From the NCBI GenBank assembly GCA_913062555.1, contig CAJXVU010000001.1, forward strand, positions 62,001-126,000: a stretch of 64,000 nt of DNA, given 5' to 3'. Shown here piece by piece: positions 10,062 to 44,912 of the stretch; the stretch's first letter is position 1; the number at the start of each line of letters is the position of its first letter. Below the pieces are notes generated by a model that did no database searches, had not been told where the DNA came from, and saw only the letters and a list, made by a program, of their open reading frames with translations. The DNA is from an uncultured Bacteroidota bacterium (lineage in GTDB: Bacteria > Bacteroidota > Bacteroidia > Flavobacteriales > Flavobacteriaceae). The translations under genes and the position numbers were made by a program.

Positions 10062-11990
10062 TTATTTTTTTGTAGTTAAAAGCAGCACTCCTTTTTCTTT
10101 GAGTTCTAAAGTATTATCCCATAAAACTTCAGAATTAGAAACCACATTTCTAAGCGTTTTACCATTTAGTCCTACCTCTTCAAACCTACTAAGATCTAGA
10201 TTTAACGATTTTTCATTTTTATTTAAAATTAGAACAACTGTTTCATCTTCTATTATTCTAAATAATAGATACACCCCTTTTTGGGGAGCAAAATGAATAG
10301 TTTCTCCATTCGGAATAGCATTGCTGGATTTGCGATAATTAAGAATAGTTTTGACAAAAGATTGCATCTCTTTTTGCGCATTAGTTAGGCCTTCACCTGT
10401 AAAAGCATTAACAGTATCTCCATTCCAGCCTCCTGGAAAATCGGTGCGTATTAGCCCATGATCACCTGGTTTGTCAAAATCATCCATTAAAATTTCTGTG
10501 CCATAATATAGTTGTGGAATTCTAGGTAACGTTAAAACTGTAGCAACCGCCATTTTTGTATTCACAACATCACCTTTAAGTTGCGTGAAAATTCGACTCA
10601 TATCATGATTATCTGGAAAAACCATAATAGCTTCAGGGTTTTGATATGCAAAATCATTTGCAAGCCCCTCATAGATTTTAACCAATCCTTTATCCCATGC
10701 TTCTTCTTCGTTTAATGCTTGAGTAATATTGGATTGCATAGCAAAATCCATAGTAGATTTTAAATTAGACTTATAGCCATCTTTATTCGTATTGCCTTCT
10801 TGCCAATAAGCAATTAATAATGGGTTATAACTCCACTCTTCACCAACAATACTAAAATTAGGATATTCATTCATAATAGCTCCTGCCCAATCGCTCATAA
10901 ATTTTTTATCAGGATACGGATAAGTATCTTGTCTAATCCCTGATAATTGCCCGGTTTCAATCCACCAAATACTATTTTGAATAATATATTTAGCCATAAA
11001 TGGGTTGCGCTGGTTTAAATCTGGCATGGAATCGACAAACCAACCGTCTGTCATCCTCTTTTTATCAATTTTAGAGGCATAAATATCTTGATTAGTTGTT
11101 CTTCTATGGCTAGAATACTTAGTGCTTTCCCAAGTCCATTTTTCAATATTATCTTCGTAATTCTTTTGATAATTTACCCAATCACTAAAAGGTAAATCTT
11201 TCATCCACCAATGTTCTAAACCGCAATGATTAGCGACCTGATCCATTATCAATTTAAGTCCCTTTTCATTCGCTTTCATTGATAATTCTAAATAATCTTT
11301 AAGCGTACCAAATCGTGGATCTATGTTATAAAGGTCTGTAATGGCATAACCATGATATGATCCTTGATGCATGTCGTTTGTTAATAATGGACAAGACCAA
11401 ATGGCTGTAAAGCCCATGTCTTCAATATAATCTAAATGATTAGTAATACCTTTTATATCGCCTCCATGTCTTTTATACCCATGACTTCTATCAAGTTCTG
11501 ATTCATTTAAACCATTGACTATATCATTTTCTGGCTGGGCATTTGCGAATCGATCTGGCGTTATTAAATAAATAACATCACTACTATCAAAACCTTGGTA
11601 ACTTTCCGATGTATGTTCGCGAGTTTTCAATTCATACGTATGCCGTTTTTCAGTACCATCTTCTGATTTAAAAACAATATCAAATTTCCCATGTTTTGTC
11701 TGTTCTGAAATTGTTAAATCTAAAAATAAATAATTCGGGCTTTTAGCTTTATGTGTTTTTTCAATTGTGACACCAGGATATGATAATGTTGCTATGGATG
11801 CACCAATATTATCTTCCTTAATTAGCAATTGTAAATTCGAGTCTTTAAACCCAATCCACCAATTTGGTGGCTCAACATGTTCTAAACTAGAATTAGAAAT
11901 AGGCACCACATTATCCAACTCAGTTTTTTCCTCCTTAGAATTGCAAGAAATTTGAGCAACAACACAAACTATTAGTATTAACTTTTTCAT
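10062..11990 (-). CDS. susA: GH13 neopullulanase/cyclomaltodextrinase-like lipoprotein (SusA-like)
   Basis: Lipobox (VAQISCNSK); N-terminal cyclomaltodextrinase-type domain; motifs DQVANHCG, GIRQDTYPYPD, VGEEW, FPDNHDMSR. Confidence 0.88.
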   Translation of the reverse strand: MKKLILIVCVVAQISCNSKEEKTELDNVVPISNSSLEHVEPPNWWIGFKDSNLQLLIKEDNIGASIATLSYPGVTIEKTHKAKSPNYLFLDLTISEQTKHGKFDIVFKSEDGTEKRHTYELKTREHTSESYQGFDSSDVIYLITPDRFANAQPENDIVNGLNESELDRSHGYKRHGGDIKGITNHLDYIEDMGFTAIWSCPLLTNDMHQGSYHGYAITDLYNIDPRFGTLKDYLELSMKANEKGLKLIMDQVANHCGLEHWWMKDLPFSDWVNYQKNYEDNIEKWTWESTKYSSHRRTTNQDIYASKIDKKRMTDGWFVDSMPDLNQRNPFMAKYIIQNSIWWIETGQLSGIRQDTYPYPDKKFMSDWAGAIMNEYPNFSIVGEEWSYNPLLIAYWQEGNTNKDGYKSNLKSTMDFAMQSNITQALNEEEAWDKGLVKIYEGLANDFAYQNPEAIMVFPDNHDMSRIFTQLKGDVVNTKMAVATVLTLPRIPQLYYGTEILMDDFDKPGDHGLIRTDFPGGWNGDTVNAFTGEGLTNAQKEMQSFVKTILNYRKSSNAIPNGETIHFAPQKGVYLLFRIIEDETVVLILNKNEKSLNLDLSRFEEVGLNGKTLRNVVSNSEVLWDNTLELKEKGVLLLTTKK

Positions 11991-12034: not shown

Positions 12035-14338
12035 TCAAATTTTAACCGTATTATTTGGAGAAATTTGAATTAATTTATCCTTTACTAAAATCTGTAAATC
12101 AGATTTTCCTTCCAATTCAAAGTTTGTTTCATTCTGACTCACGAGAACTTTTAGTATTTGATTTCTAAAATTAACCTTAAAGGAATAGGCATCCCATTGC
12201 TCAGGTATTTTTGGATCAAATGATAAGGTATTATTTTTTACTCTCATGCCTCCAAAACCTTCAACAATACTCATCCAAGTTCCTGCCATTGATGTAATAT
12301 GTAAGCCTTCATGTACCTCGTTATTATAATCGTCCAAATCTAATCGAGAAGTCCTCAAATAAAATTGATATGCCTGATCCATTCTATCTAATTTCGCCGC
12401 TTGAATGCTATGTACACAAGGTGACAACGAGCTTTCATGCACGGTATAAGGTTCATAAAAATCAAAATGACGTTCTAATTCATCGCTACCAAAATGATCT
12501 TCAAAAAAGTAGAAGCCCTGTAAAACATCTGCTTGTTTAATATATGGTGATCTCAAAATTCGGTCCCAAGACCATTTCTGATTTATAGGTCGTTGTGCCT
12601 TTTCCAGATCTGCAACTGTAATTAATTCCTTATCTAAAAATCCATCCTGCTGTAAGTAAACCCGATGCTTTTCGGAATATGGGAAATACATATTATTTGC
12701 AACGGCTTTCCAGTTTTCAATTTCGGGATTAAAAAGTTTTGTCTTATTTATGATTCGATCATAATCAGCATTATATTCTGCTTTTACTTTATCAATAGCT
12801 TCTATTGCAAAATTAATACACCATTGGGCTAAATAATTAGTATACCAATTATTATTCACGTTATTTTCGTACTCATTAGGCCCTGTAACTCCAAGAATTA
12901 CATAGCCATTTTGGCTTTCAGAAAAAGTTGCTCGTTGATGCCAAAAGCGTGCGATGGCAATTAATACTTCTAATCCTTTTTCTGGAATATAACTGTAATC
13001 TCCTGTAAATCTGTAATAGTTGAAAATCGCAAAAGCGATAGCCCCATTTCTATGAATTTCTTCAAATGTAATTTCCCATTCATTATGACATTCTTCGCCA
13101 TTCATGGTTACCATAGGAAACAAAGCTGCTCCGTTTGAAAACCCAAGTTTTTCGGCATTTTCAATAGCTTTATCTAAATGTTGATAGCGGTATTCTAATA
13201 GTTTCCGAGCGACTTTTTGGTTTTTTGTTGCCATATAGAAAGGAATACAATAGGCTTCGGTATCCCAATAAGTACTTCCTCCATATTTCTCTCCTGTAAA
13301 TCCTTTAGGCCCAATATTTAATCGTGCATCAGTTCCTAAATAAGTTTGATTTAATTGAAAAATATTAAACCGAATCCCTTGCTGTGCTTTGACATCTCCT
13401 TTAATAGTGATGTCTGCCATGTCCCAGATTTCTGCCCAAGCTTGTTTTTGACATTCTAACAGTGAATTAAACCCAATTTCAACAGCATTATGCAATGTAC
13501 TTTGGGCTTCTAAAATCAATTCGCTTTTATCATGATTTCTATCAACCGTATAACCTCCAAATTTTTGAATTGTAAACGTTTGACCTTTTGGAACATTCAT
13601 AAAATACTTGAAACTTATTTTACTTTCCGTTTTCAGAGCTTCGAACGGCAAATTAAGCTGCTTATCGTTTAAATAACACCGTGATTGCATGAAGGTACAC
13701 GTATGAAAATTTGTTTTCATAGTATGCGCCTCAATATATGCTCTATCTTGGTCTCTACTAATACTAGTTATATTCCAAAAAGCATCATCCCAATTGCTAT
13801 CTTCGTTAGTAATTCCTGCATCCAAATAAGGTTCAAAACTAATTTTAGCAGCTCCATTTATAGGTGTTATTGAATATTTAATTGCGCCAAGCTCATCGAT
13901 ATCTAAACTCAAAAAACGCTTAGTTTCAATCTTTATTTCTGTATTATTTTGTAGTGTTGCCTCAAAACTTCTGGACAACCAACCTTCTTGCATATTTAAT
14001 TCCCGTCTATAATTTTTTACGGTACACTTAAATAAATCTAGGGCTTCGCCATTAATATTTACATTAATTCCAATCCAATTTGGAGCATTTAATACTTTTG
14101 CAAAATATTGAGGGTACCCATTTTTCCACCATCCCACTCTAGTTTTGTCTGGGTAGTAAACCCCAGCAATATAACTACCTTGAAATGTAGGGCCAGAATA
14201 GTGCTCTTCAAAATTAGCACGCTGTCCCATTGCTCCATTTCCTATACTAAACAGACTTTCTGAAGCCTTAACATTTTTAGTGTCAAACCCCTCTTCTATT
14301 ATGGACCAATTATCTGGTTTTATATAATCTTGATTCAT
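12035..14338 (-). CDS. GH65 family phosphorylase (maltose phosphorylase-like); likely start at internal ATG (MNQDYIKPDN)
   Basis: GH65 signatures: GYTVDRNHDKSE, KGFTGEKYGGSTYWDTEAYCIPFY, GVTGPNEYENNVNNNWYTN. Adjacent to beta-phosphoglucomutase. Confidence 0.92.
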   Translation of the reverse strand: MNQDYIKPDNWSIIEEGFDTKNVKASESLFSIGNGAMGQRANFEEHYSGPTFQGSYIAGVYYPDKTRVGWWKNGYPQYFAKVLNAPNWIGINVNINGEALDLFKCTVKNYRRELNMQEGWLSRSFEATLQNNTEIKIETKRFLSLDIDELGAIKYSITPINGAAKISFEPYLDAGITNEDSNWDDAFWNITSISRDQDRAYIEAHTMKTNFHTCTFMQSRCYLNDKQLNLPFEALKTESKISFKYFMNVPKGQTFTIQKFGGYTVDRNHDKSELILEAQSTLHNAVEIGFNSLLECQKQAWAEIWDMADITIKGDVKAQQGIRFNIFQLNQTYLGTDARLNIGPKGFTGEKYGGSTYWDTEAYCIPFYMATKNQKVARKLLEYRYQHLDKAIENAEKLGFSNGAALFPMVTMNGEECHNEWEITFEEIHRNGAIAFAIFNYYRFTGDYSYIPEKGLEVLIAIARFWHQRATFSESQNGYVILGVTGPNEYENNVNNNWYTNYLAQWCINFAIEAIDKVKAEYNADYDRIINKTKLFNPEIENWKAVANNMYFPYSEKHRVYLQQDGFLDKELITVADLEKAQRPINQKWSWDRILRSPYIKQADVLQGFYFFEDHFGSDELERHFDFYEPYTVHESSLSPCVHSIQAAKLDRMDQAYQFYLRTSRLDLDDYNNEVHEGLHITSMAGTWMSIVEGFGGMRVKNNTLSFDPKIPEQWDAYSFKVNFRNQILKVLVSQNETNFELEGKSDLQILVKDKLIQISPNNTVKI

Positions 14339-14477
14339 ATTTCTTTTCTTAGATAAAAAAACGAGACAAAAGCTGTAATTCACACACTCTTTTATGACTT
14401 CCGTTTTTTTATTTTAATGCTACGTTTCATCATACGCTGTGTAGCACATTATATTATATACTGTAAACTAATACTGT

Positions 14478-16638: not shown

Positions 16639-17691
16639 TTATTTTGTAGAATCTCGCTCTATCAATTCAGTATCTACAATCAAGGTTTGATAGTGCTCTA
16701 CTTCATCTTCGTCTTCACTCTCATTTTCAAGCCTTTCAATTAATAATTCGGCCGCTTTTTCACCCATTATTTGAGCATGTTGACTCACTGTCGTTAAGGT
16801 TGGTGTAGCGTGTTTTGAGAGCACTCCATCAGAAAAACCAATAACTTGAACATCATCAGGAACAGTCAATCCTAGAGCTCTCGCAGCCTTCATTGCAGTG
16901 ACAGCATACAATTCATTAACAGCAAACACCGCATCAATTTTTGGATTACTTTTAAACAATAACTCTACTTCTTCTTCTAAAACCTCTAAATGATCTTCAG
17001 ATAACAAATCGTCATCAACTTTCAATATTAAATTCGCCTTTGGACTCATTCCAAATGCTTCCAATGCGTTCAAATATCCCTGTGTTCTTAATCGTCCAAC
17101 AGTAACATAATCCTTAGTTGTTATCAGCGCAATATTTTTGCATCCATTGGAAATTAATTTATCTACCGCTATTTTTGATCCTTTCAAATCATCAACAATT
17201 ACCTTATCACAATTAATCTCGTTAACCACCCTGTCAAACATTACAATTGGCATTCCTTGATTAATAGTTTCTTTAAAATGATGATAATCCTGTTGTTGCA
17301 AAGTCTCTCGAGATGTGGACAGGATGAATCCATCAATGCTCCCTGTGGCCAACATTTCCATATTAATAACCTCTTTATCAAAAGATTCGTTAGACAAACC
17401 AACAATAACATTGTAGCCCTTTTTATTAGCCACAAGTTCAATACCTCGAATTACTTTCGAAAAAAAGTAATGTACAATTTCAGGTATAATAATTCCGATA
17501 GTTTTGGTTTTTCTATTCTTTAAACTTAGTGCAATATTATTCGGGCGATAATTATATAGCTTAGCAAATGCCTGTATTTTTTGAGTCGTATCTTCACTAA
17601 TTTCGATACTATTACGAAGCGCTTTTGAAACTGTAGAAATAGAAACATCTAATTCTCTGGCTATTTGTTTTAGGGTGATTTTTCTTTTCAC
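16639..17691 (-). CDS. LacI-family transcriptional regulator
   Basis: N-terminal HTH KITLKQIARELDVSISTVSKALRNS and periplasmic-binding-protein-like ligand domain. Confidence 0.95.
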   Translation of the reverse strand: MKRKITLKQIARELDVSISTVSKALRNSIEISEDTTQKIQAFAKLYNYRPNNIALSLKNRKTKTIGIIIPEIVHYFFSKVIRGIELVANKKGYNVIVGLSNESFDKEVINMEMLATGSIDGFILSTSRETLQQQDYHHFKETINQGMPIVMFDRVVNEINCDKVIVDDLKGSKIAVDKLISNGCKNIALITTKDYVTVGRLRTQGYLNALEAFGMSPKANLILKVDDDLLSEDHLEVLEEEVELLFKSNPKIDAVFAVNELYAVTAMKAARALGLTVPDDVQVIGFSDGVLSKHATPTLTTVSQHAQIMGEKAAELLIERLENESEDEDEVEHYQTLIVDTELIERDSTK

Positions 17692-18062: not shown

Positions 18063-20948
18063 ATGAAAACAATTTTAAATAGTTTACTATTTGTACTATT
18101 TTTTGTCCCCTTATTCTCATTTGGACAATCAACAGTTACAGGAACAGTAACAGAACAATCATCATCCTTACCAATTCCAGGTGTTAATGTCATTATAAAA
18201 GGCACAACCACAGGTACGGCAACAGATTTTGATGGTAATTATCAAATATCAGTTAATAACGGAGACATTTTAGTATTCTCATATGTAGGTTACAAATCTA
18301 TGGAGTTAACCTATTCTGGACAATCTCCATTAAATATACAACTGGAGCAAGATGCTGCTCAATTGGATGAAGTGGTATTAATTGGATATGGATCAACCAC
18401 TAAACAAGATGCTACAGGAGCCGTTGAAAAAGTTTCTATTGAAGAATTTAATCAAGGGGCCATTGTGTCTCCTGAACAATTATTAGCCGGAAAATCGGCC
18501 GGGGTTAGAATCACCTCTGGTGGTGGTGCTCCGGGTGAAGGCTCAGAAATTAGAATTCGTGGTGGTGCTTCATTATCTGCCAATAATTCTCCACTTATAG
18601 TTGTTGATGGGTTACCGTTAGATCAAAGAGGCGTTCAAGGCGTAAGAAGCCAATTAAATGCCATTAACCCAAATGACATTCAAGATTTTGTAATATTAAA
18701 GGATGCTTCAGCAACTGCTATTTACGGTTCTAGAGCCTCTAATGGTGTTATTTTAATCACTACTAAAAAAGGAAATACCAACACTGATTTTAAAGTTGAA
18801 TACGACTTAAAAGCATCTGTTGGCTCGGTTACTAAATATGTAGATGTATTAAATGCACACGAGTTTAGAGCAGTTTCTCAAGCCGATCCAGATTTTGATC
18901 CAGGTTTATGGGGAAACACAAGTACAAATTGGCAAAAACAAATTTATCAAAATGCCGAAGGTGCCATTCATAATTTAACGATAAGTAAAGGATACCAAAA
19001 CTTTAATTACCGTTTAAACTTTAATCATGTTTCTCAGAAAGGTGTATTAAAAACAGACTTGTATGAAAGAAATTCATTAAACCTTGCGTTGACACAACGT
19101 TTGCTAGATAACAACTTAAAGTTAACATTAACATCTAAAGGAATTTTTGATGACAATGCATTTGCTAATCAAGGCGCTATAGGCGCTGCTATTGCATTTG
19201 ACCCAACCCAACCGGTATACAACCCAGATGGGAGTTACTTTCAATATGTTGGTGAGACCTTAGCGCCTACTAATCCTGTTTTTGGACTTGAAACTAATAA
19301 TAATAGAGCGCGTAATAAACGAACAATTACCAATTTCAATATTGATTATAAATTGCCCTTCTTAGAAGGATTAAGGTTTAATTTAAACGCGGGAATTGAT
19401 TATTCTGAACTTAATGGAAAGCAATTCAATCCTGCAAGTCCTACGAACCCAAATAGTTTTGCGTACAAAAACTTTTATACAGGCTTAAATAGAAATTCAT
19501 TATTAGATTTTTATTTTAATTATAAAAAAGAAGTTGAATCGATTAATACTGTAGTCGATGTTATAGCTGGCCACTCGTATCAGGAATTTTATGTAAAATC
19601 AAATCGTAGTGAAACTGACAATGGTTCTCTGGTCGCTAGGCCTGTTAATATTGATAGAAATGCTTTAGAATCTTATTTTGCTAGAGCCAATTTTGATATT
19701 GAAGATAAATACTTAATCTCATTAAGCTATAGACGTGATGGATCATCGCGATTTAGTGAAGATAATAGATGGGGTAGTTTCCCTGGAGTTTCTGTGGGAT
19801 GGAAAGTGACTAATGAAGCCTTTATGGAAAATTCGTTCTTTTCAAATCTTAAGCTTAGAGCAGGTTGGGGTATTACAGGTCAACAAGAAATTGGACCTAA
19901 CTATGGATATTTAGGAATTTATACTCCTGGCCGTAGCGATGCTGCAGTACAATTTGGAAACGGATTTGTAAACACCTTGCGTCCTGAAGAATTTGACGAA
20001 AACCTTAAATGGGAAGAAACTACACAATACAATGTTGCTTTAGATTTCGGACTTTTTAATGACCGATTAACAGGAACAGTAGATGCTTATTATAGAGAGA
20101 CCGAAGATTTATTAGCTACGGTTCCTACCGCAGCCGGATCAAACCTCGCCGATTTACTAACAACAAATGTAGGATCCACAACAAGTAAAGGAATTGAAAT
20201 TGGATTAAATGGATCACTATTTGAGTCGGATGACTTTTCTTGGGATTTAGGATTCAATCTTACTTTTCAGGATGTGGAAATCACAAATCTATCTTTAGGA
20301 AATGATCCTAATTACTTTATTCCTCAAGGTGGAATCTCTGGGGGTGTTGGGAACAACATTCAACTGTGGAGAGAAGGTCTAGATCCTACAACATTTTTTG
20401 TATTCAGACAAGTATATGACACAAATGGAAAGCCAATTGAAGGGGCGTATGTTGATGTTAATGGCGACAATCAAATCACAGAAACAGACAGACAAGCTTA
20501 CAAAAAAGCAACACCTGATTTTTTTGCCGGACTAACAAGCAATTTAAAGTATAAAAATTTCGACTTCAACTTTACGTTCAGAGGGAGCTTCGGCAACTAT
20601 ATGTACAACAATGTAGCTTCAGATAGAGGTGTTGTTGAAACTGTAATAGATGCGCCAGGTAATTTTTATCCAAATGCACATTCAAATGTATTGGCTACTG
20701 GATTTGTTAATCAACAATTATTTTCAGATCACTACATTCAACGTGCAGACTTCATTAAACTTGATAATATCTCTATTGGGTATGTAATCCCAGGGGAGAA
20801 AGTCACTTTAAGAACCTCTTTAACAGCCACTAACGTATTTACGATCACGGATTATGACGGATTAGATCCTGAAATATCTAGAGGTATCGATAGTAATTTC
20901 TATCCGAGACCTAGAATGTATGTATTAGGCTTAAACTTCACATTTTAA
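18063..20948 (+). CDS. susC: SusC/RagA-family TonB-linked outer membrane receptor
   Basis: Carboxypeptidase-like domain (GTVTEQSSSLPIPGVNVIIKGTTTGTATDFDGNYQI), plug motif (LDEVVLIGYGSTTKQDATGAVEKV), C-terminal beta-barrel ending in F. Confidence 0.96.
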   Translation: MKTILNSLLFVLFFVPLFSFGQSTVTGTVTEQSSSLPIPGVNVIIKGTTTGTATDFDGNYQISVNNGDILVFSYVGYKSMELTYSGQSPLNIQLEQDAAQLDEVVLIGYGSTTKQDATGAVEKVSIEEFNQGAIVSPEQLLAGKSAGVRITSGGGAPGEGSEIRIRGGASLSANNSPLIVVDGLPLDQRGVQGVRSQLNAINPNDIQDFVILKDASATAIYGSRASNGVILITTKKGNTNTDFKVEYDLKASVGSVTKYVDVLNAHEFRAVSQADPDFDPGLWGNTSTNWQKQIYQNAEGAIHNLTISKGYQNFNYRLNFNHVSQKGVLKTDLYERNSLNLALTQRLLDNNLKLTLTSKGIFDDNAFANQGAIGAAIAFDPTQPVYNPDGSYFQYVGETLAPTNPVFGLETNNNRARNKRTITNFNIDYKLPFLEGLRFNLNAGIDYSELNGKQFNPASPTNPNSFAYKNFYTGLNRNSLLDFYFNYKKEVESINTVVDVIAGHSYQEFYVKSNRSETDNGSLVARPVNIDRNALESYFARANFDIEDKYLISLSYRRDGSSRFSEDNRWGSFPGVSVGWKVTNEAFMENSFFSNLKLRAGWGITGQQEIGPNYGYLGIYTPGRSDAAVQFGNGFVNTLRPEEFDENLKWEETTQYNVALDFGLFNDRLTGTVDAYYRETEDLLATVPTAAGSNLADLLTTNVGSTTSKGIEIGLNGSLFESDDFSWDLGFNLTFQDVEITNLSLGNDPNYFIPQGGISGGVGNNIQLWREGLDPTTFFVFRQVYDTNGKPIEGAYVDVNGDNQITETDRQAYKKATPDFFAGLTSNLKYKNFDFNFTFRGSFGNYMYNNVASDRGVVETVIDAPGNFYPNAHSNVLATGFVNQQLFSDHYIQRADFIKLDNISIGYVIPGEKVTLRTSLTATNVFTITDYDGLDPEISRGIDSNFYPRPRMYVLGLNFTF

Positions 20949-20977
20949 TGATGACGAAAATTATAAAAATCAAAGCA

Positions 20978-22888
20978 ATGTATAGAACATTAAAATATAT
21001 CTTTTTCGCTTTCACGCTTGTACTATTTGTACAGTCCTGTGCCAACGATTTAGATTTACAACCAGAAGATGATCGTCTTACAGCCGATGTCGCTTTTGAC
21101 GACCCTACATCTTATAGAGCCTTTCTTGCTAAAATTTATGCAGGTATCTCATTGAGTGGCCAAGAAGGCCCAGCAGGTAATGCAGATTTAGCTGGATTGG
21201 ATGAAGGCTTCTCAAATTACTTAAGATTGTATTGGAAAATGCAAGAGCTAACTACAGATGAGGCTGTAATTGGATGGAATGACGGAACAATTAAAGATTT
21301 ACACTCACAAAATTGGACTGCAGGTAACGAATTTATTAGAACCATTTATAGCAGGATAATGTATCAAGTAAAATTGGCTAATGAGTTCTTGAGTCAAACT
21401 ACTGATGAAAAATTAGATAGCCGTGGTGTAGATGCAAGCTTAAAAGCTGAAATTCAGAATTACCGAGCAGAAGCTCGTTTTATGAGAGCGTTAAGTTATT
21501 GGCATGCTATGGATTTATTTGCAAATCCGCCATTTGTGACAGAAGAAGATCCAACAGGCGCTTTTTTACCAGAGCAAATTCAACGTTCAGACCTTTTTAC
21601 TTATATCGAATCTGAACTTTTAGCAATTGAAAACACGATCATTGGTTCGAAACAAAATGAATATGGAAGAGCTGATCAAGCCGCTGTTTGGATGCTATTA
21701 TCCAAATTGTATTTGAACGCTGAAGTATATACAGGAACTGCAAGATATGACGAGGTTATTAATTTTACAACTAAGGTAATTAATGCTGGGTACTCAGTGC
21801 CTTCTAATCCATATTATCAGTCTTTTTTAGCAGATAATGATATGAATGGTACACAAAACGAAGTTATTTTTTCTATTCCATTTGATGGGTTAAAAACGCA
21901 ATCATTTGGTGGTATGACATTCTTAGTACACGCTCCCGTAGGAGGTAGCATGGTTCCTGGAGATTACGGAATCAATGGTGGTTGGTTTGGTGTGAGAACA
22001 ACATCGACATTTGTAGAAAAATTTAATGCTGAAACTCTAGATCTAGATGCTTTTAATGCCACCTTAGGAACTCAATCTGATTGGGGGCTCGTAGGAGATG
22101 CTACATTAAATGGATGGAATGGTCCCGATATGGAATTATATGAAACAGCAAACAATAAATATATCATATACGCCAACTTAGTTAGCGGAGAAATGAAATT
22201 CAGATTCAATGAAGATTGGGGTGTGAACTTTGGAGATAATGATACTGATGGATCTTTAGAAGATGGTGGGGCTAATATCCCTATTGAGGAAGCTGGAACC
22301 TATGTAATTACATTAGACCTAGACAACTTAACATATACCATTTCACCATTTGACGGCGATCAAAGAGCCCTATTCTATACAGATGGTCAATCCTTAGAAA
22401 TTGAAGATATTAGTTCTTTTACTAATGGGTATGCTATTGAGAAATACAGAAATGTAGATGTAAATGGTGTTCAAGGCTCTGATTCAACTGGAGATCACCC
22501 TGATACCGATTTCCCAATGTTTAGACTTGCTGATGCTTATTTAATGTACGCAGAAGCAGCACTAAGAGGTGGAGGCGGTAGCTTAAGTGAGGCCGTAACA
22601 TACATTAACCAACTTAGAGATAGAGCTTTTGGAAGTGGTATTGGAAATGTAGAGCAAGCCGATCTTTCACTAGATTTTATCTTAGACGAACGGGCAAGGG
22701 AATTATTTTGGGAAGCTCATAGACGAACAGATTTAATACGATTCGGACAATTCTCTAACCAAGGCATTTGGCCATGGAAAGGAAATGTACCACAAGGGGC
22801 TACTACACAAGCATATAGAGACGTAATGCCTTTACCTGCTTCCGATTTAGGAGTTAATACTAATTTACAACAAAACGAAGGTTACTAA
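20978..22888 (+). CDS. susD: SusD/RagB-family starch-binding lipoprotein with inserted SusE/F-like domain
   Basis: Lipobox (FVQSCANDL), SusD motifs (AEARFMRALSYWHAMDLF, ADAYLMYAEAAL, ERARELFWEAHRRTDLIRFG). ORF opens at 20948; the second ATG (20978) precedes the signal peptide. Confidence 0.95.
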   Translation: MYRTLKYIFFAFTLVLFVQSCANDLDLQPEDDRLTADVAFDDPTSYRAFLAKIYAGISLSGQEGPAGNADLAGLDEGFSNYLRLYWKMQELTTDEAVIGWNDGTIKDLHSQNWTAGNEFIRTIYSRIMYQVKLANEFLSQTTDEKLDSRGVDASLKAEIQNYRAEARFMRALSYWHAMDLFANPPFVTEEDPTGAFLPEQIQRSDLFTYIESELLAIENTIIGSKQNEYGRADQAAVWMLLSKLYLNAEVYTGTARYDEVINFTTKVINAGYSVPSNPYYQSFLADNDMNGTQNEVIFSIPFDGLKTQSFGGMTFLVHAPVGGSMVPGDYGINGGWFGVRTTSTFVEKFNAETLDLDAFNATLGTQSDWGLVGDATLNGWNGPDMELYETANNKYIIYANLVSGEMKFRFNEDWGVNFGDNDTDGSLEDGGANIPIEEAGTYVITLDLDNLTYTISPFDGDQRALFYTDGQSLEIEDISSFTNGYAIEKYRNVDVNGVQGSDSTGDHPDTDFPMFRLADAYLMYAEAALRGGGGSLSEAVTYINQLRDRAFGSGIGNVEQADLSLDFILDERARELFWEAHRRTDLIRFGQFSNQGIWPWKGNVPQGATTQAYRDVMPLPASDLGVNTNLQQNEGY

Positions 22889-22900
22889 AAACTACATAAA

Positions 22901-24235
22901 ATGAAAAACTTAAAAATTTTAGGATTATTAATTATTGCCGCTATTAGCTTCAATTCTTGTTCGCAAGATGACGATGTGGTTTTTATAGCACAAGAACCTG
23001 GTGAATTTGCTTTTACAAATGCATTCTTATCAGAATACACATTAACTAGTGACGCTTCTTCCAATATAGGCGAGCGTTTTACTTGGACCAATGCAGATTT
23101 TGAAGTTCCTACAAACGTTACTTATGAGCTTCAAGGAGCCATTTCAGAGGACTTCAGTGATATGGCTGTATTAGGAACAACACCTGGCAATGAACTTTCC
23201 ATCACCATAAGTAAAATGTTATCGATGGCAGGAGAAGCTGGATTAGATAACGACCCTGAAACTGAAAACCCAGATAGTGGAAGTCTTTATTTCAGATTAC
23301 GTTCTTTTATTGGCAATGGGGATAGTTCAACTGAAGTATTTACAGCAACGCAAACACTTAATGTTGTTTTACCAGAATTAGCGGTTGAAGATGATGGTGC
23401 TATTTCGTTATCCACTTGGGGTATTGTAGGATCTGGTTATAATAACTGGGGTGCTTATGACGATTCTCCATTTTACACAACCGAAGAAGACAATATATTT
23501 GTTGCATATGCTACTTTGTTTGATGGTGAAATTAAATTTAGAGAAAATAATGAATGGACTAACGACTTCGGTGATACTGGAGCAGACGGTACATTAGATG
23601 CTGGTGGAGACAATATTGCCGTTACTGCAGGTCATTATAAAATCAACTTAAACTTAAACGATAACACCTATAGTATCGAACCATTTACTTGGGGTATTGT
23701 TGGCTCTGGTTATAATGATTGGGGTGCATCGCCTGATGCTAAGTTTTTCTATGATTATACTACTGATACTTTTAAAGTTGGTGTTAGACTAATTGATGGT
23801 GAAATCAAGTTTAGAATGAATAACGAGTGGACTAGTGACTTTGGAGATACTGGTGCAGATGGTACTTTAGACGCTGGTGGCGATAATATTGCTGTAACTG
23901 ATGGTCATTATGCGATTACTTTAGACCTCAATAATAATGTATACACTATTGAAACTGCAGATTTATATGGCGTTGTAGGCTCCGGTTATAATGATTGGGG
24001 AGCTACTCAAGATTTTACATTTACAGAAGTTAATCCTGGACTATGGATTGCTGAAATAGTACCTTTAGTTGACGGCGAAATTAAATTCCGTGTCAATGAT
24101 GCTTGGGCTTCCGATTTCGGAGATTCTGGTGCAGATGGAACTCTAGATGCTGGGGGTGATAATATTGCTGTTACAGCAGGAAATGCTAGAATATGGTTAG
24201 ACATTACGAATAACACATATTCTATCAATCAATAA
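22901..24235 (+). CDS. SusE/SusF-like outer-membrane starch-binding lipoprotein with three tandem C-terminal domains
   Basis: Lipobox (ISFNSCSQDD); N-terminal SusE-like domain; three repeats of (T/Y)WG(I/V)VGSGYN(D/N)WGA...DGEIKFR...DFGD(T/S)GADGTLDAGGDNIAVT. Confidence 0.9.
   Translation: MKNLKILGLLIIAAISFNSCSQDDDVVFIAQEPGEFAFTNAFLSEYTLTSDASSNIGERFTWTNADFEVPTNVTYELQGAISEDFSDMAVLGTTPGNELSITISKMLSMAGEAGLDNDPETENPDSGSLYFRLRSFIGNGDSSTEVFTATQTLNVVLPELAVEDDGAISLSTWGIVGSGYNNWGAYDDSPFYTTEEDNIFVAYATLFDGEIKFRENNEWTNDFGDTGADGTLDAGGDNIAVTAGHYKINLNLNDNTYSIEPFTWGIVGSGYNDWGASPDAKFFYDYTTDTFKVGVRLIDGEIKFRMNNEWTSDFGDTGADGTLDAGGDNIAVTDGHYAITLDLNNNVYTIETADLYGVVGSGYNDWGATQDFTFTEVNPGLWIAEIVPLVDGEIKFRVNDAWASDFGDSGADGTLDAGGDNIAVTAGNARIWLDITNNTYSINQ
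23414..24232 (+). repeat. Three in-frame tandem SusE/F-type domain repeats (about 273-279 bp each)
   Basis: Repeat units begin near 23414, 23687 and 23966; the DFGDxGADGTLDAGGDNIAVT segment is nearly identical in all three. Confidence 0.93.
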
Positions 24236-24390: not shown

Positions 24391-27267
24391 ATGAAGAAGA
24401 TATACTCCCTTATTTTATTTGTATCAATTATAAATTTTAGTTTTAGCCAAGTTACCATTACACCTACTCCTTTCGACATAGATGAATCTATAACCATAAC
24501 TATTGATGCAAATAGTAGTGCTACAAACTGTAATGGCTTTAGCAATCCTACAAAAGTGTATATGCATTCTGGTGTTGGACCAGACTCTAATGCATGGACC
24601 CATGTCATTGGAAATTGGGGACAGGATGATGGTGTTGGAGAAATGACAAATAATGGTGATGGCACCTGGAGTATTACCTTAACTCCAGACACCTATTATG
24701 GCCTCACTTCAGAGCAAGCCTCATTAGCCATTAAAATGGGCATGGTATTTAGAAGTCAAGATGGTTCACAAGAATTAAAAAATGACGGTTGTAGTGATTT
24801 CTTTTTTGACATAGGCAGTTTTCAAGTCAGCCTAACTACGCCATTAGCAAATTCTACTACTGTTTTAACTTCTGGAGACAACCTTAGCATTAGTGCCACC
24901 AACATTGGTGGTAATGCTAATTATGTATTAAAATCCAATGGTAGTACCATAAACACTCAATCGAATATCGCTTCATTTGCTTATACTCATACAAACATTA
25001 CAGCAAATCAAAATTACAGTTTAGAAGTTACTATAGACGCAACCACAATAACTAAAACATTCCAAGTCATAATTGACCCAGTAACTACCTGGGAGATAAT
25101 GCCTGATGATTATGTTGACGGCATTAATTATCACAATAGCGACCCAACAAAAGTCACTCTTGTACTAGATGCCAATAGTAAGGATTTTGTATATGTTGCA
25201 GGAAGTTTCAATAATTGGCAACCTGATGGTTCTTATGCTATGAAACGTGATTTTACACGCAATAATAAATTTTGGCTCACGCTCACAGGACTTACATCTG
25301 GTCAAATAGAATCCTTTCAATATTGGGTTATAGATAAAACGCCAATTGTAAACTCCCCGACATTAGTCAAAACAGCAGATCCTTATTCTACTCTTGTTCT
25401 ATCACCATTTGACGATTCCGGAATACCAAATACAACCTATCCAAACTTACCATCGTACCCAGATGATCAGGAACGTGAAGTTACCGTATTACAGACAGGA
25501 CAAACTTCTTATAATTGGCAAGTAACTAATTTTAGCAAACCCAAAAAAGAAGATTTAGTCATCTACGAAGTCTTAATTCGCGATTTTGATGGCGATAGAA
25601 ACTTTCAAGATCTTATTGATAAGATTTCCTATTTCAAAAACTTAAATATTAATGCCATTCAACTTATGCCCATCATGGAGTTTGAAGGCAATGAAAGTTG
25701 GGGATACAACACTGCATATCATATGGCTTTAGACAAATTCTATGGCACTGAAGATAAATTCAGGGAACTTGTTGATGTATGTCATCAAAATGGTATTGCC
25801 GTAATTCTCGACATTGCCTTAAACCATGCCTTTGGACGAAATCCAATGGTAAGGATGTGGATGAATGATGCTGATAATGATGGCTGGGGAGAACCTAGTT
25901 CGGAAAATCCTTATTTTAATGAGACTCCAAAGCACAGTTATAATGTAGGATCTGATTTTAACCATCAACAATTTAGGACTCAAAACTATGTTAAACGCGT
26001 AGTTAAACATTGGATAGAAAATTTTAAAATAGATGGTTTCCGCTGGGATTTAACCAAAGGGTTTACTCAAAATTGCTCCTCCAATGATGAAGGGTGTACA
26101 AATTCATACCAACAAGACCGTGTTGATGTATTAAAATCATACGCCGATTATTCCTGGAGTTTAGATCCAACGCATTATGCAATATTTGAGCATTTGGGCA
26201 CTCCTACTGAAGAACAGCAATGGGCAAATTACCGACTTACTGGTGAAGGGGATGGGATTCCAAAAGGCATTATGATGTGGGGTAAAATGACTGAAAACTA
26301 CAATCAACTTACAATGGGCTTTGCCTCTAATTCCAACTTTGACTGGATGGGACATGATGCACATGGGTTTGATGAAAAACGACTAGTAGGATATGCCGAA
26401 AGTCATGACGAAGAACGATTAATGTATAAAAATTTACAGTTTGGAAACACCACCAACGGTTCCCATGACGTAACCAACCTTAATACAGCGCTGTCAAGAA
26501 TGCCTGCCTTAGGTGCTGTTACTTTAACTATTCCAGGACCAAAAATGATTTGGCATTTCGCTGAATTAGGTATGGAAAATTCCATATTTACATGTGATAA
26601 TGGAAGTGTAAATGACCCAGATTGTAAATTGAGCACCAAACCACAACCACAGTGGGCTAATAATTGGTCTAATGACCTTGCCAGAAAAGCAATCTATGAT
26701 GCCTGGTCAAGATTAAATTATTTAAAAATTAATGAAGCTGTTTTTGAAGGTGAATATACAATAAGCTCAGGTACATTAAATCCAAAAATTCGCGTCTGGG
26801 ACAATAGTCTTCCTGCAAATACGCTATCTGATGTTATTATTTTAGCAAATTTTAATGTGACTTCTCAATCTATAAATCCAGGTTTTACAAATACAAATAC
26901 CTGGTATGATTTAATGGATGAAACCGGAAATACTACAATTAGTGGATCTACAACATCAATTAATATTCCTGCTGGTGAATTTAGAATTTATGGAAATCAT
27001 GCTGTCGAAACATTATCTAATCCAAGTTTTGATAACGTACTATCTCTTATGGTTTATCCCAACCCTTCTAAAGAGAGCTTTAGTATAAACAAGCCTTCAA
27101 ATGAATTAAGCATATATGATCTCACTGGAAAACTGGTAAAAGTGTTCAAAGGCGAATTCATTGCAGGACAAACAATGGATATTTCAGAATTATCACCAAG
27201 TATTTATCTTTTAAAAGTCAAAACAAATTCAGGGCTTCAACAAATTACTAAACTGGTGAAGCTATAG
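24391..27267 (+). CDS. Secreted multidomain GH13 alpha-amylase with T9SS C-terminal sorting domain
   Basis: Signal peptide; N-terminal binding-like domains; CBM48-like VYVAGSFNNWQPDG; GH13 motifs LDIALNHAFGRN, DGFRWDLTKGF, YAESHDEERL; C-terminal VYPNPSKESFSI...LSIYDLTGKLVK...YLLKVKTNSGLQQITKLVKL. Confidence 0.92.
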   Translation: MKKIYSLILFVSIINFSFSQVTITPTPFDIDESITITIDANSSATNCNGFSNPTKVYMHSGVGPDSNAWTHVIGNWGQDDGVGEMTNNGDGTWSITLTPDTYYGLTSEQASLAIKMGMVFRSQDGSQELKNDGCSDFFFDIGSFQVSLTTPLANSTTVLTSGDNLSISATNIGGNANYVLKSNGSTINTQSNIASFAYTHTNITANQNYSLEVTIDATTITKTFQVIIDPVTTWEIMPDDYVDGINYHNSDPTKVTLVLDANSKDFVYVAGSFNNWQPDGSYAMKRDFTRNNKFWLTLTGLTSGQIESFQYWVIDKTPIVNSPTLVKTADPYSTLVLSPFDDSGIPNTTYPNLPSYPDDQEREVTVLQTGQTSYNWQVTNFSKPKKEDLVIYEVLIRDFDGDRNFQDLIDKISYFKNLNINAIQLMPIMEFEGNESWGYNTAYHMALDKFYGTEDKFRELVDVCHQNGIAVILDIALNHAFGRNPMVRMWMNDADNDGWGEPSSENPYFNETPKHSYNVGSDFNHQQFRTQNYVKRVVKHWIENFKIDGFRWDLTKGFTQNCSSNDEGCTNSYQQDRVDVLKSYADYSWSLDPTHYAIFEHLGTPTEEQQWANYRLTGEGDGIPKGIMMWGKMTENYNQLTMGFASNSNFDWMGHDAHGFDEKRLVGYAESHDEERLMYKNLQFGNTTNGSHDVTNLNTALSRMPALGAVTLTIPGPKMIWHFAELGMENSIFTCDNGSVNDPDCKLSTKPQPQWANNWSNDLARKAIYDAWSRLNYLKINEAVFEGEYTISSGTLNPKIRVWDNSLPANTLSDVIILANFNVTSQSINPGFTNTNTWYDLMDETGNTTISGSTTSINIPAGEFRIYGNHAVETLSNPSFDNVLSLMVYPNPSKESFSINKPSNELSIYDLTGKLVKVFKGEFIAGQTMDISELSPSIYLLKVKTNSGLQQITKLVKL

Positions 27268-27413: not shown

Positions 27414-29663
27414 TTAGTTTTGAATAATTTTTAAATGTTCACCATTTACCAAATCATCATGCGAAATGAAATAACTTTTATACGGCTTTCCATTAAGTAG
27501 GATTCTATTAATGTCCCCATTAGTTTTGCTCTCTTTTTCGATTACCAATGTTTTCTTTTTATAATAATTCGAATCGAGCTGAATGGTAATCTTATCGAAC
27601 ATAGGTGTTGTAATTGCATATTTAGGTTCTCCTGGTGACAATGGATAGATTCCCATCATTGAGTACACCAACCAAGCCGACATCGTTCCAGTATCATCAT
27701 TTCCTGGCAAACCATCGGGTTGATTTTTAAAATATTTAGAAACAAGATTTGCAACATGCTTTTGAGCTCTCCATTCTTCACCTTTTACATAATTAAATAA
27801 ATACGGGTAAGCAATATCCGGTTCATTGGCCATATCAAACTGATTGCTATCAAACACTTTTTGAAGCTGTTTACTAAAGGCTTTTTTACCGCCCATGAGC
27901 TTCATGAGCCCCTTAATATCATGAGGTACCATAAACGCATATTGCCAAGCATTACCTTCAATAAATCCAACATTTTTTGTAAAGTTAGCCCCTGCCTCGG
28001 GATTGAAAGGTGTATACCAGTTTCCATTCGCCAATCTCGGGCGTAACAGATTTAAATCTTTATCAAAAAGCTTTCTATAGGATATTGATCTGTCTATAAA
28101 TCGATTGAAATCTTCCTTTTTCCCCAAAGCTTTTGCCAATAATGCAATGGAAAAATCGGCAGAATTGTATTCTTCGGTTGTCGATACTGACCCCCCATTA
28201 TCGGTTGTTAGGTAGCCTTTGTTTATATAGTCATCAAGTCCTGGGCGTAATGGATTATTTTCAATTTGATCGGCACTCTTCAGCATTGCCGAATAAGCTT
28301 TTTCAATATCAAAATCCTGGATTCCTTTTAAGTAGGTATCGGTAATCACAATACTTGCAGGGTCTCCTACCATTGTGAATGTTTCTGTTGAATTCAATTC
28401 CCATTTTGGGAGCCATCCATTTTCATCATACATCTCCAGCATACTCTTTATCATATCCGATTGTTGACGTGGGTATACCAGTGACATCAACTGATGTAAA
28501 TTTCTATAGGTATCCCAAAGCGAAAACACGGTGTATCTCGTTCCTGCTGTTTTCCCAATTTTGCCAGTTTTTATTTGAGGAAATTCCCCATTGATATCAT
28601 TCAGTGTATTGGGATGAATTAAACTATGATACAAGGCTGTATAAAAAATAGTTTTATCGTCATTGGTGCCCCCTTCAACTTTTATTCTGGATAGCAATTG
28701 ATTCCAAGCGTCGAAGGTTTCTTTATAAATTGCTTCAAACGAAGCATCTCCAGTTTCCTTTTCTAAATTCTCTCTTGCATTTTCAATACTCACATATGAA
28801 ACTCCTATTTTAACCTCGACACTGGTTTCTTTGTCAAAATTATAAGAGAAATAAGTCCCTATACTATCACCTACTACCATCTTCGTAGCCCGTTCCATCA
28901 TACGCGTTTTGCCATTATAACCCATCCATTGCGCCTCAACACCATTGTACTTGGCAGGAGTTTTCCACACTCCAAAATTATCGGCAGGTTTTGAGAATTT
29001 AGCAACAAAATATACAGGATAGGCGGCCTCAGGACTATTATAACAAAATGAACCAACAGAACGCATTCCTTCAATTTCTGTGGACGATACAACCTTTACC
29101 ATGGCCCCTTGTTCATTAGTTAAACCCAAGCCTAAATTTAAAAGGATATTGGATTGGCCTTTGGGAAAAGTAAATTTATTGATCCCTACTCTTTTTGAAG
29201 TTGTAAATTCTGCTTTTATATTGTACTTATCAATTTCGGAACTATAATACGCCGTTTTAGCTATTTCATTAGAATAAGTTGAACCATATTTTAAATGATT
29301 TGTTTCTACTTTACCAGTTGTTGGCATTAACAAAAGCACTCCCAGCTCTGGGCAACCAACACCGCTTAAATTCACCTGACTAAATCCAGTTAAAAAAGTA
29401 TTTTCATTAACATAAGGATTAGATAGCCAGCGGCTGTCTTTCTCTAGTGGCATGTTTTGTGCCCCTGCAACATTAAACGGACTGATACTCGCCATCCCTC
29501 TTGGTGCAATAGGCCCTGGAAATGTCGCTCCATAATTTGAAGTTCCAATAAATGGATTTACATAAGAAGCCGGTTCTTGAGAAAAAGCATTAGAAAAAAC
29601 AAATATGGCTGTAATTGTAAAGAGCCTTCTTACTTGGTTTATGGTAATAATTTTTGAAAACAT
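27414..29663 (-). CDS. GH92 family alpha-mannosidase-like protein
   Basis: VNPFIGTSNYGATFPGPIAPRGMASISPFN, FSLWDTYRNLHQL, GNDDTGTMSAWLVYSMMGIYPLSPGEP. Confidence 0.93.
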   Translation of the reverse strand: MFSKIITINQVRRLFTITAIFVFSNAFSQEPASYVNPFIGTSNYGATFPGPIAPRGMASISPFNVAGAQNMPLEKDSRWLSNPYVNENTFLTGFSQVNLSGVGCPELGVLLLMPTTGKVETNHLKYGSTYSNEIAKTAYYSSEIDKYNIKAEFTTSKRVGINKFTFPKGQSNILLNLGLGLTNEQGAMVKVVSSTEIEGMRSVGSFCYNSPEAAYPVYFVAKFSKPADNFGVWKTPAKYNGVEAQWMGYNGKTRMMERATKMVVGDSIGTYFSYNFDKETSVEVKIGVSYVSIENARENLEKETGDASFEAIYKETFDAWNQLLSRIKVEGGTNDDKTIFYTALYHSLIHPNTLNDINGEFPQIKTGKIGKTAGTRYTVFSLWDTYRNLHQLMSLVYPRQQSDMIKSMLEMYDENGWLPKWELNSTETFTMVGDPASIVITDTYLKGIQDFDIEKAYSAMLKSADQIENNPLRPGLDDYINKGYLTTDNGGSVSTTEEYNSADFSIALLAKALGKKEDFNRFIDRSISYRKLFDKDLNLLRPRLANGNWYTPFNPEAGANFTKNVGFIEGNAWQYAFMVPHDIKGLMKLMGGKKAFSKQLQKVFDSNQFDMANEPDIAYPYLFNYVKGEEWRAQKHVANLVSKYFKNQPDGLPGNDDTGTMSAWLVYSMMGIYPLSPGEPKYAITTPMFDKITIQLDSNYYKKKTLVIEKESKTNGDINRILLNGKPYKSYFISHDDLVNGEHLKIIQN

Positions 29664-29669
29664 AAATTG

Positions 29670-31997
29670 TTACTTCTTTAGATTATCATTACTTAAAGAA
29701 TAGGGTACATTCTCCGGTTGACTTGCCCATTTTTTATTTGGCGTAGCACTCATATCAAATTTTATATCCCCTCCATTTTGAATATCTTCAAAATTGATGA
29801 AACTATTATGCCATGTTTTACCATTTAGCGAAGCCCCTTCAATAAATACATTCTCTTTAGAATTGTTTCTTGCTGAAATAACAAAGGAATTACCATTTTC
29901 CAAGCTAAGAGTGGCTTTCTCAAACAAAGGACTCCCTATTACATATTCATTAACACTTGGCGTCACAGGATAAAACCCTAAAGAACTAAACACGTACCAT
30001 GCCGAGGTTTGCCCATTATCTTCATCTCCACAATAACCATCTGGAGTTGCGCTATATAATTTTGTTAGTACGTCTCTAACTTTTGCCTGTGCCTTATAAG
30101 ACGCATTGGCGTAGTTATATAAATAAATCATGTGTTGAATAGGTTGATTTCCATGGGCGTAATTCCCCATATTGGCAATTTGCATCTCTCGAATCTCGTG
30201 AATGGTAAATCCATAATATGACGCATCGAAATCTGGTGGCATATCAAAAACCTCATCCAATTTGGCAACAAAATTATCATTACCACCCATTAAGTTTATT
30301 AGGCCTTGTGTATCGTGAAATACAGACCACGTATAATGCAAGCTATTCCCTTCTGTAAAAGCATCCCCCCATTTTAATGGATTAAAAGGCGTTTGAAATC
30401 CACCATCTTCGTTTTTACCACGCATTAAATTATTAGTATCATCAAATAGCAATTTGTAATTGAATGATTGCTTATAAAATTTATCCGCCAGCTCCATTTT
30501 ATCCATGGCTTGAGCGAAATTGGCAATAGTAAAATCGGCAAAAGCATACTCCAATGTTCGTGCTGCATTTTCATTAATTCCCACATTATATGGAACATAT
30601 CCTAATGTATTATAGTAATCAACACCTGCTCGTCCAACAGAATTTACTGGTCTGCCATTATTTTCACTGGCATTTTTTAATACCGCTTCCAACAGCACTT
30701 CTACGTCCTTTTCTTCCATATTGCCTTTCAGATAGGCATCAGCAATTATGGTTGCCGAATTGGAACCTATCATACAATCTCTATGTCCAGGGCTTGCCCA
30801 TTCTGGTAACCATCCCGACTCTTTATAAGTATTCGCTAGGCCTTCCATAATATGGGTATTTAATTCGGGATACATTAAATTAAAAAATGGGAACACTGCT
30901 CTAAAGGTATCCCAGAATCCATTATCGGTAAACATATACCCTGGTAAAACCTCTCCATTATAAGGGCTATAATGAACAACATCTCCATTTGCATCATACT
31001 CATAAAATTTTCTTGGAAACAGCAATACCCTGTACAAGCAAGAATAAAATGTTTTGATATTATCGATATTATCATCTTCAATAATAATTCGGCTTAATTC
31101 AGTCTCCCAGGCCAATCTCGCTTTTTCTTTAGTTTGCTCGAAAGTATCTGTTCCTATTTCTGTTTTTAAATTTAGAGCGGCTTGTTCCGGACTGATAAAT
31201 GAAGAGGCAACTTTAACATGTACTTGCTCTCCTTTTTTAGTCTTAAATCCAATAATTGCCCCTACATGATTGCCTTCATTATCAACCGTGTTTTCTGCCA
31301 AAATCCAATCATCCCCCCAAGTATGGTTTAGTTCAAAATCTTTATCAAACTCAGCCACAAAATAATTATGAAAATTCTCTGGAACTCCACCACTATTATT
31401 TCTACAATAGCCAATTATTTTGCGTTCGTTTGGTAAAATTTTCACCATTGAACCTTTAAAAAAGGCATCGAGCATAATATATGACGAATCGGCTTCAGGA
31501 AATGTAAATCTGAAATGTGAAGCACGTTCGGTAGGTGCTATTTCGGCAGTAATATCATAATCGGCTAGATATACACTATAATGATTGGGTTTTACAATTT
31601 CTGCTTTATGTGAAAAATGTGATACTCTTTCATCTTCCTTATATTTTAATTCACCAGTAACTGCCATTAATGAAAATGCTGCATAATCATTAATCCAAGG
31701 ACTTGGTTGGTGAGTTTGCTTAATTCCTCTTATCGTTAAATCGTCGTATTTATAAGTCCACCCATCTCCCATTTTGGCCGTTTGTGGGGTCCAAAAATTC
31801 ATCGCCCATGGTGTTGCTATAGCAGGATAAGTATTTCCATTAGACAGCTCGAAAGAGGAATCGGTTCCCATCAATGGGTTTACATAGTCAACTAAATCGA
31901 CAGTTTCATTTGATGCTGTACTATCATCTCTTTCATTGGTATTACAGGATACAAACAGCATCGTACCTATAAATAACATTGCAAAAATCTTTTTCAT
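29670..31997 (-). CDS. GH92 family lipoprotein (divergent N-terminal catalytic-site region)
   Basis: Lipobox (MLFVSCNTN); VNPLMGTDSSFELSNGNTYPAIATPWAMNFW; GDEDNGQTSAWYVFSSLGFYPVTP. Confidence 0.93.
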   Translation of the reverse strand: MKKIFAMLFIGTMLFVSCNTNERDDSTASNETVDLVDYVNPLMGTDSSFELSNGNTYPAIATPWAMNFWTPQTAKMGDGWTYKYDDLTIRGIKQTHQPSPWINDYAAFSLMAVTGELKYKEDERVSHFSHKAEIVKPNHYSVYLADYDITAEIAPTERASHFRFTFPEADSSYIMLDAFFKGSMVKILPNERKIIGYCRNNSGGVPENFHNYFVAEFDKDFELNHTWGDDWILAENTVDNEGNHVGAIIGFKTKKGEQVHVKVASSFISPEQAALNLKTEIGTDTFEQTKEKARLAWETELSRIIIEDDNIDNIKTFYSCLYRVLLFPRKFYEYDANGDVVHYSPYNGEVLPGYMFTDNGFWDTFRAVFPFFNLMYPELNTHIMEGLANTYKESGWLPEWASPGHRDCMIGSNSATIIADAYLKGNMEEKDVEVLLEAVLKNASENNGRPVNSVGRAGVDYYNTLGYVPYNVGINENAARTLEYAFADFTIANFAQAMDKMELADKFYKQSFNYKLLFDDTNNLMRGKNEDGGFQTPFNPLKWGDAFTEGNSLHYTWSVFHDTQGLINLMGGNDNFVAKLDEVFDMPPDFDASYYGFTIHEIREMQIANMGNYAHGNQPIQHMIYLYNYANASYKAQAKVRDVLTKLYSATPDGYCGDEDNGQTSAWYVFSSLGFYPVTPSVNEYVIGSPLFEKATLSLENGNSFVISARNNSKENVFIEGASLNGKTWHNSFINFEDIQNGGDIKFDMSATPNKKWASQPENVPYSLSNDNLKK

Positions 31998-32069
31998 CTT
32001 TTTAATCTATTAAAATTTCGTCTACAAATAACCACACTCTCCTCCGCTAGGAATGGTTTTTAAATTGGT

Positions 32070-32081
32070 TGCAATTGCAAT
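32070..32081. promoter_or_regulatory. Palindrome TTGCAATTGCAA upstream of a GH92 gene
   Basis: Perfect 12-bp palindrome in the 199-bp gap upstream of the 31997 start. Confidence 0.3.
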
Positions 32082-32196
32082 TATATTACTGTGTTTTGTT
32101 GTTCAATAATCTCGACTACTAATACCTTATTCCTTATATTTTACATGAAAACACAATAGTGAAATTACAGCTAAACTAACATATTTTTATACATAA

Positions 32197-34431: not shown

Positions 34432-34436
34432 GCTTA

Positions 34437-35558: not shown

Positions 35559-35567
35559 AACTTATTA

Positions 35568-36650: not shown

Positions 36651-36727
36651 TTTAAATCAGTTTTATTATAAACTATTATCTTTTGTGAACTGAACAACTT
36701 CATTTATAGAAACATCAATACTATCCA

Positions 36728-44540: not shown

Positions 44541-44912
44541 ATGCAATTATCAAAGACCGAAGAGCAATTAATGCAGCATATATGGAAACTTAAAAAGGCC
44601 TTTATGAAGGATATCTTAGAAGCTTATCCAAATCAAAAGCCTGCAACAACAACTATTGCTACGCTTTTAAAACGAATGACAGACAAAGGTTTTATAGACT
44701 ATAAACTCTATGGGAAGTCTCGTGAATACTTTCCTTTAGTTAAAAAGAAAGATTATTTCTCAAAACATGTTAATGGGTTAATCAAGAATTTTTTTAATGA
44801 CAGTGCTTCTCAATTCGCTTCATTTTTCACTAAAGAAACCAACCTTAGCATGGAAGAATTAGAACAATTGAAATCACTTATTGATAGCGAACTTAAAAAG
44901 AAAAAGCCATGA
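44541..44912 (+). CDS. BlaI/MecI/CopY-family repressor
   Basis: Winged-helix TEEQLMQHIWKLKKAFMKDILEAYP...TTIATLLKRMTDKGFIDYKLYGKSREYFP. Confidence 0.93.
   Translation: MQLSKTEEQLMQHIWKLKKAFMKDILEAYPNQKPATTTIATLLKRMTDKGFIDYKLYGKSREYFPLVKKKDYFSKHVNGLIKNFFNDSASQFASFFTKETNLSMEELEQLKSLIDSELKKKKP

Follow-up and report, generated by a model that had tools for sequence, protein, structure and literature searches.

A 64,000-nucleotide stretch of DNA from an uncultured Bacteroidota bacterium of the family Flavobacteriaceae (contig CAJXVU010000001.1, positions 62,001 to 126,000; referred to here, at its full length, as the window) carries a starch-utilization locus whose susD gene encodes a predicted SusE/F-type X25 module inserted into the SusD fold. 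SusD is the lid of the SusC transporter, and SusE and SusF hold starch at the cell surface through X25 modules. Because starch-binding residues are kept in the insert, its likeliest role is that of an extra, putative alpha-glucan site in SusD. We consider it probable that the module, seated in a permissive surface segment of SusD, provides a second and independent alpha-glucan site on the lid of SusC, and that this segment, as a slot with zero to two modules, is evolvable. The parts are known and their arrangement is new; the architecture itself is real and recurrent. Its computed features are the identity of the domain, the predicted fold, the conservation of residues, recurrence at one site and discordant histories, and from these we infer sugar binding, the spatial nearness of the two sites, avidity and hand-over, and exchange as the source of the discordance.

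The susD gene is a single intact frame with an ATG start and a stop codon, and Cys31 of its product, which follows the signal peptide and is invariant across 36 homologues, points to a lipoprotein. The original prediction, made by reading the window, had described about 90 amino acids lying between canonical SusD parts at 22073-22353, and had noted their likeness to the three repeats encoded by the next gene. The segment, of 93 amino acids, is translated in frame precisely as it had been quoted, and those limits are correct to within two residues (module core 22079-22351). When the window's own genome was searched, the segment matched only itself and the three downstream SusE repeats, with 47, 44 and 42% identity to the latter (E values of 1e-16 to 3e-11). 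Domain parsing with Pfam and AlphaFold bore out that it is a separate SusE/F-type module and no ordinary SusD element. Pfam identified SusF_SusE (PF16411) at residues 381-483 (E = 1e-8, 36 bits against a cut-off of 27.5), SusD_RagB at 304-646 (E = 1.7e-36, scored across the insert) and a weak SusD-like_3 match at the N-terminal part; PF14292, the N-terminal domain of SusE, is absent from the window SusD and present in the neighbouring protein encoded at 22901-24235. In alignment with Bacteroides thetaiotaomicron SusD the break falls exactly at the segment: among PDB sequences, 3ck7 (B. thetaiotaomicron SusD) aligned with residues 33-370 and 469-646 of the window protein and 3jys with residues 47-361 and 471-646, each leaving a gap there. 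Nor is such an insert standard in SusD homologues, since B. thetaiotaomicron SusD and most relatives are without it. Close insert-less relatives have only a few residues in the region of the linker that leads into the module (residues 361-377), in which the AlphaFold model places a short helix at 366-370.

Modelled as a whole together with 36 homologues, the window SusD was predicted to consist of a SusD core and a compact beta module spanning approximately residues 372-468, where the predicted local distance difference test score (pLDDT) was mostly 90-95, or about 92 for the module as a whole; modelled alone with 63 relatives, the module reached 97.3. The top fold matches of this model were the Sca5 X25 pair, SusF, an amylase N/F domain, a pullulanase X25 and the starch-binding domain of AmyP, with E values of 0.003-0.1 for what is a predicted fold of a 93-residue domain, and probabilities of about 1.0. 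When compared with PDB sequences, a four-row profile of the module returned no match, and a broader profile built from 18 rows of diverse modules was needed, which matched SGBPdex BT3088 (4e-29), SusF 4fe9 (7e-11) and the AmyP starch-binding domain 5x5s (1e-6). Taken together, sequence and model identify the segment as one complete predicted module of the X25/SusE-F type.

The Trp-Lys-Trp triad of SusF, which we take to be W287, K323 and W330 (a numbering that agrees with the profile alignment and the chain offset), is kept in the insert as W390, K417 and W424, with a spacing of seven from the lysine to the second tryptophan in both. These three residues, together with W379, F418 and R419, are 100% invariant in 35 single inserts. 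Where the insert comprises two modules, the second mostly keeps the triad (84-100%), and the first is often degenerate, the second tryptophan being present in 53%. As for the host protein, Foldseek matched the model of the whole SusD to the SusD structures 3jys and 3ck9 (E values of 1e-31 to 1e-26). Residues D73, R81, W98, N101, Y296 and W320 presumably make up the canonical starch site of B. thetaiotaomicron SusD; the window protein keeps D73, R81, W98 and W320 as D85, R93, W110 and W346, has F320 in place of Y296, and does not keep N101. By alignment it is a bona fide alpha-glucan SusD with most of its own predicted site.

With the module near the canonical SusD site in sequence, a long or branched chain such as starch or glycogen could be gripped by the lid itself, passed to the canonical site and then to the SusC barrel. 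A second lid contact for one chain would give higher avidity for polymers and keep the chain beside the gate, where SusE and the surface amylase may work on it as well. For the X25 modules of SusF, a Kd of about 300 uM each has been reported with malto-oligosaccharides (PMC9112005). The inserted module would point away from SusC, and, as expected if it does so, a comparison of SusC sequences found no indel or fixed residue change accompanying the insert. A SusD of this kind has its SusE-type module fixed on the lid, and natural relatives with zero and one module, whose backbones are 73-80% identical, and with two modules offer ready-made comparisons. The architecture also bears on the uptake of glycogen-like alpha-glucans by marine Flavobacteriia.

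To define its distribution, 300 Flavobacteriaceae genomes were searched, with a match to the window SusD at E <= 1e-60 taken as SusD-positive; 114 were positive, and the long inserted form was present in 29 of these, the window included. Two tandem modules occupy the same site in other lineages, namely Prolixibacteraceae (Draconibacterium and Maribellus), metagenome-assembled genomes (MAGs) of Saprospiraceae and one Chlorobiota-labelled contig that is possibly mis-binned, so that the domain transfer originally proposed was not a one-off event. Genome G495 belongs to a family that is presumably Saprospiraceae, and 34 of the 64 SusD-positive genomes of that family have the two-module form. Across the rows of the set used for trees (80 named loci and further fetched loci), the insertion site holds no module in 83, one in 35 and two in 12, and junction alignment places the single-module insertion at an identical point across the family. 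Close insert-less relatives belong to Psychroserpens, Gelidibacter and most Winogradskyella, and are 70-80% identical in the best segment. Three of the 83 rows with no module have a 34-residue loop at the site; in Aquimarina loci L044, L081 and L083 a 34-residue non-X25 segment resembles the excursion of B. thetaiotaomicron SusD, and the slot thus admits other sequence. Near two-module SusD genes (L088, L093, L105, L111, L171 and L172) there are often proteins of approximately 590-700 amino acids with three to six tandem X25 modules, possibly free starch-binding proteins. Bacteroidota-type sus loci were also seen in Chlorobiota MAGs (L089, L110) and a Gemmatimonas MAG (L113), probably through mis-binning, or else through transfer. 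A GH53-like gene (galactanase-type, by reading), unexpected in an alpha-glucan locus, lies in the starch sus loci L171 (6196-7593), L172 and L038 (at about 15.2 kb).

Turning to the origin of the module, the nearest kin of the window insert are inserts in the SusDs of other genera, with up to 76% identity, as against 38-45% to the three local SusE repeats. These values refute the idea that recombination within this genome recently placed a copy of a susE repeat in susD. Donor-type repeats do lie 1 kb downstream and the GC content is the same, but the insertion point is the same across the family as well, and we give such a local copy almost no credence. What stands of the original prediction is the SusE/F-type (X25) module inserted in SusD, and the correction to it is that the module did not arrive from the neighbouring susE in any recent event. 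Insert and backbone also differ in their affinities: compared with locus L154 the window insert is 75.6% and the backbone 50% identical, compared with L035 the values are 58% and 80%, and block-wise identity along the window SusD switches near the borders of the insert. In the backbone tree the number of modules changes at least nine times in 57 rows; well-supported branches require seven changes of the insert-less state, and a larger, quick backbone tree has 11 changes of module number. In the module tree, which has few columns and many weak forks, 26 of the 35 single inserts form one group (92 in the Shimodaira-Hasegawa-like approximate likelihood-ratio test, SH-aLRT), those of Winogradskyella/ALC-1 form a separate clade (99-100), and the two-module inserts pair with SusE module 1 (SH-aLRT 100) and module 2 (93) respectively. 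Since this pairing with two-module SusE proteins is module by module, it suggests that both SusE modules were copied, or are shared, as a unit.

Strict vertical inheritance of one ancestral insertion, with every absence a loss, would account for the main group of single inserts and the one insertion site, and multiple losses from an ancestral insert are possible for the single-module group alone; it fits poorly, however, with two-module inserts whose partners in the tree are the two SusE modules and not single inserts, with the conflict between insert and backbone trees, and with the separate Winogradskyella/ALC-1 clade, and we consider it unlikely. Exchange between SusD genes is the likeliest explanation of the discordance for the group as a whole, the modules probably having been drawn from a SusE-type pool, lost, and swapped from one SusD gene to another largely without regard to the backbone. 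The identities of insert and backbone correlate only with rho 0.34, which says little alone because the correlation between SusE and backbone is equally weak (0.31). The inserted architecture is recurrent, has been repeatedly gained or lost, and was apparently exchanged. It is possible, and we hold this more tentatively, that the surface segment of alpha-glucan SusDs acts as an exchange slot throughout the phylum, repeatedly receiving SusE-type modules (0, 1 or 2) that move separately from the backbone, and that in some lineages the lid takes over the binding role of a separate lipoprotein.

Several findings weigh against a second binding site that has been acquired in this way. As isolated X25 modules of Sca5 did not bind alone (PMC9112005), a single module may be a weak binder, and AlphaFold confidence is low around the SusD site, with pLDDT below 50 at residues 319-332 and 344-347. 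Judged by the insert alignment, the topology of the backbone is rejected (log-likelihood difference 184, approximately unbiased test p = 4.5e-5), but in a test that sets the insert's own best tree against another tree, and forcing the window insert together with its backbone sisters was not rejected (p = 0.11 and 0.25 in the same test). Exchange is for this reason not established for the window gene, and a window-specific transfer from a distant SusD clade, strong by identity, was set aside on these non-significant values. It is also conceivable that useful sugar binding has been lost and that the module instead docks SusD to, or spaces it from, SusE, the amylase or SusC. It sits on the lid with utilisome partners close by (PMC7618045), and the first module of two-module SusDs often lacks its second tryptophan; SusE/F-type proteins may cooperate with the SusCD importer in a stable or a transient complex, and in a binding or an architectural role (PMC7618045). 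The retention of both tryptophans and the lysine in 35 of 35 single inserts nevertheless goes beyond what a mere spacer would lead one to expect, and no SusC change accompanies the module, making a docking role improbable in our judgement.

A different consequence would be that X25 modules on SusD make a separate SusE lipoprotein dispensable. No SusE with PF14292 is encoded in four two-module genomes (G495, G614 and the genomes of loci L105 and L111), whose X25 modules are confined to SusD, a secreted five-module protein and, in one genome, one single-module frame. Striking as this is, PF14292 also misses the SusE-like genes of insert-less relatives, the window has both the insert and a three-module SusE, and the wider count gives replacement no support as a general rule: in the G495 family, 14 of 32 two-module SusDs and 17 of 27 insert-less ones have an X25 gene downstream, which is no significant association (Fisher p = 0.19). 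We regard it as very unlikely, and continue to favour a second alpha-glucan site on the lid. As a separate observation, the SusE-like proteins that follow insert-less SusDs of this family (L098, L106 and L240-L255) often have four or five X25 modules, not two or three, and PF14292 misses many of them.

The module and its genomic surroundings are listed in Table 1. The locus is a starch/alpha-glucan polysaccharide utilization locus (PUL), with genes for GH65 and GH13 (glycoside hydrolase families), SusE, a major facilitator superfamily (MFS) transporter and a LacI-family regulator; the MFS gene and a phosphoglucomutase-like gene are, like those for GH65 and LacI, on the minus strand.

Table 1. 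Features of the window SusD and of the surrounding locus (window coordinates).
Feature	Position	Strand	Basis or remark
Neopullulanase/SusA-like protein	10062..11990	-	sequence reading
GH65 enzyme	12035..14383	-	
LacI-family regulator	16639..17691	-	likely controls this locus
susC, TonB-dependent transporter, 961 amino acids	18063..20948	+	directly before susD
susD, predicted lipoprotein, 646 amino acids, inserted X25 module	20948..22888	+	
Trp110, equivalent to B. thetaiotaomicron SusD W98, canonical SusD site	21275..21277	+	alignment
Trp346, equivalent to B. thetaiotaomicron SusD W320, canonical SusD site	21983..21985	+	alignment; about 30 residues upstream of module
Linker into module, residues 361-377, about 17 amino acids	22028..22078	+	junction alignment
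Inserted SusE/F-type X25 beta-sandwich module (predicted), core residues 378-468	22079..22351	+	Pfam, AlphaFold, fold search
Trp390, SusF W287 equivalent, platform Trp (putative)	22115..22117	+	profile alignment, conservation
Lys417, SusF K323 equivalent (putative)	22196..22198	+	profile alignment, conservation
Trp424, SusF W330 equivalent (putative)	22217..22219	+	profile alignment, conservation
susE-like lipoprotein, PF14292 and three X25 repeats	22901..24235	+	Pfam, sequence comparison
Three X25 repeats of the susE-like gene	23414-23686, 23687-23962, 23963-24232	+	
GH13-type enzyme with type IX secretion system C-terminal sorting domain	24391..27267	+	

Beside this locus, at 27414-38983 on the minus strand, lie four GH92-type alpha-mannosidase-like genes (two recognized by Pfam, two by reading), in a cluster that reads as having CBM9-type and GHL10-type genes and is without a susC or susD of its own. 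A plus-strand gene at 44909-46933 reads as encoding an M56/BlaR1-like membrane protein, in which a repeat of about 36 amino acids (KLKEERLAHRESQAAARVLKLKAQKGELVKVREIQSV) occurs four or five times in nearly identical form.

A search of open-licence papers yielded no account of an X25 module within a SusD (subscription journals, preprints and supplements lay outside the search). The window SusD has its core fold and most ligand residues in common with B. thetaiotaomicron SusD (3CK7-3CKC) and with 3JYS; the B. thetaiotaomicron protein lacks the module and has an excursion of about 34 residues at the same place. The X25 modules of SusF and SusE (4FE9) share with the insert their fold and the W-K-W triad with its K-to-W spacing of 7, but are repeats on separate surface lipoproteins, whereas the window has one module within the SusD lid. 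Similarly, BT3088 SGBPdex (9SJE/9SJI), which of the solved structures the module profile matched best by sequence, belongs to a dextran system and is a surface glycan-binding protein in its own right, unlike the inserted module. The starch-binding X25 tandem of Ruminococcus bromii Sca5/Sas20 (7RPY) is the top fold match of the insert; there, two modules make one shared site, and the proteins belong to the amylosome and are not parts of an importer. Beidler et al. 2024 (PMC11093988) sorted marine alpha-glucan SusDs into looped and open types and observed binding of pullulan and glycogen by a Flavimarina SusD. As far as the main text of that paper goes, the looped SusDs of marine Flavobacteriia have a 17-amino-acid loop near the site, with no inserted module mentioned, and, as here, their alpha-glucan PULs also encode a SusE-like protein, along with several GH13 enzymes.
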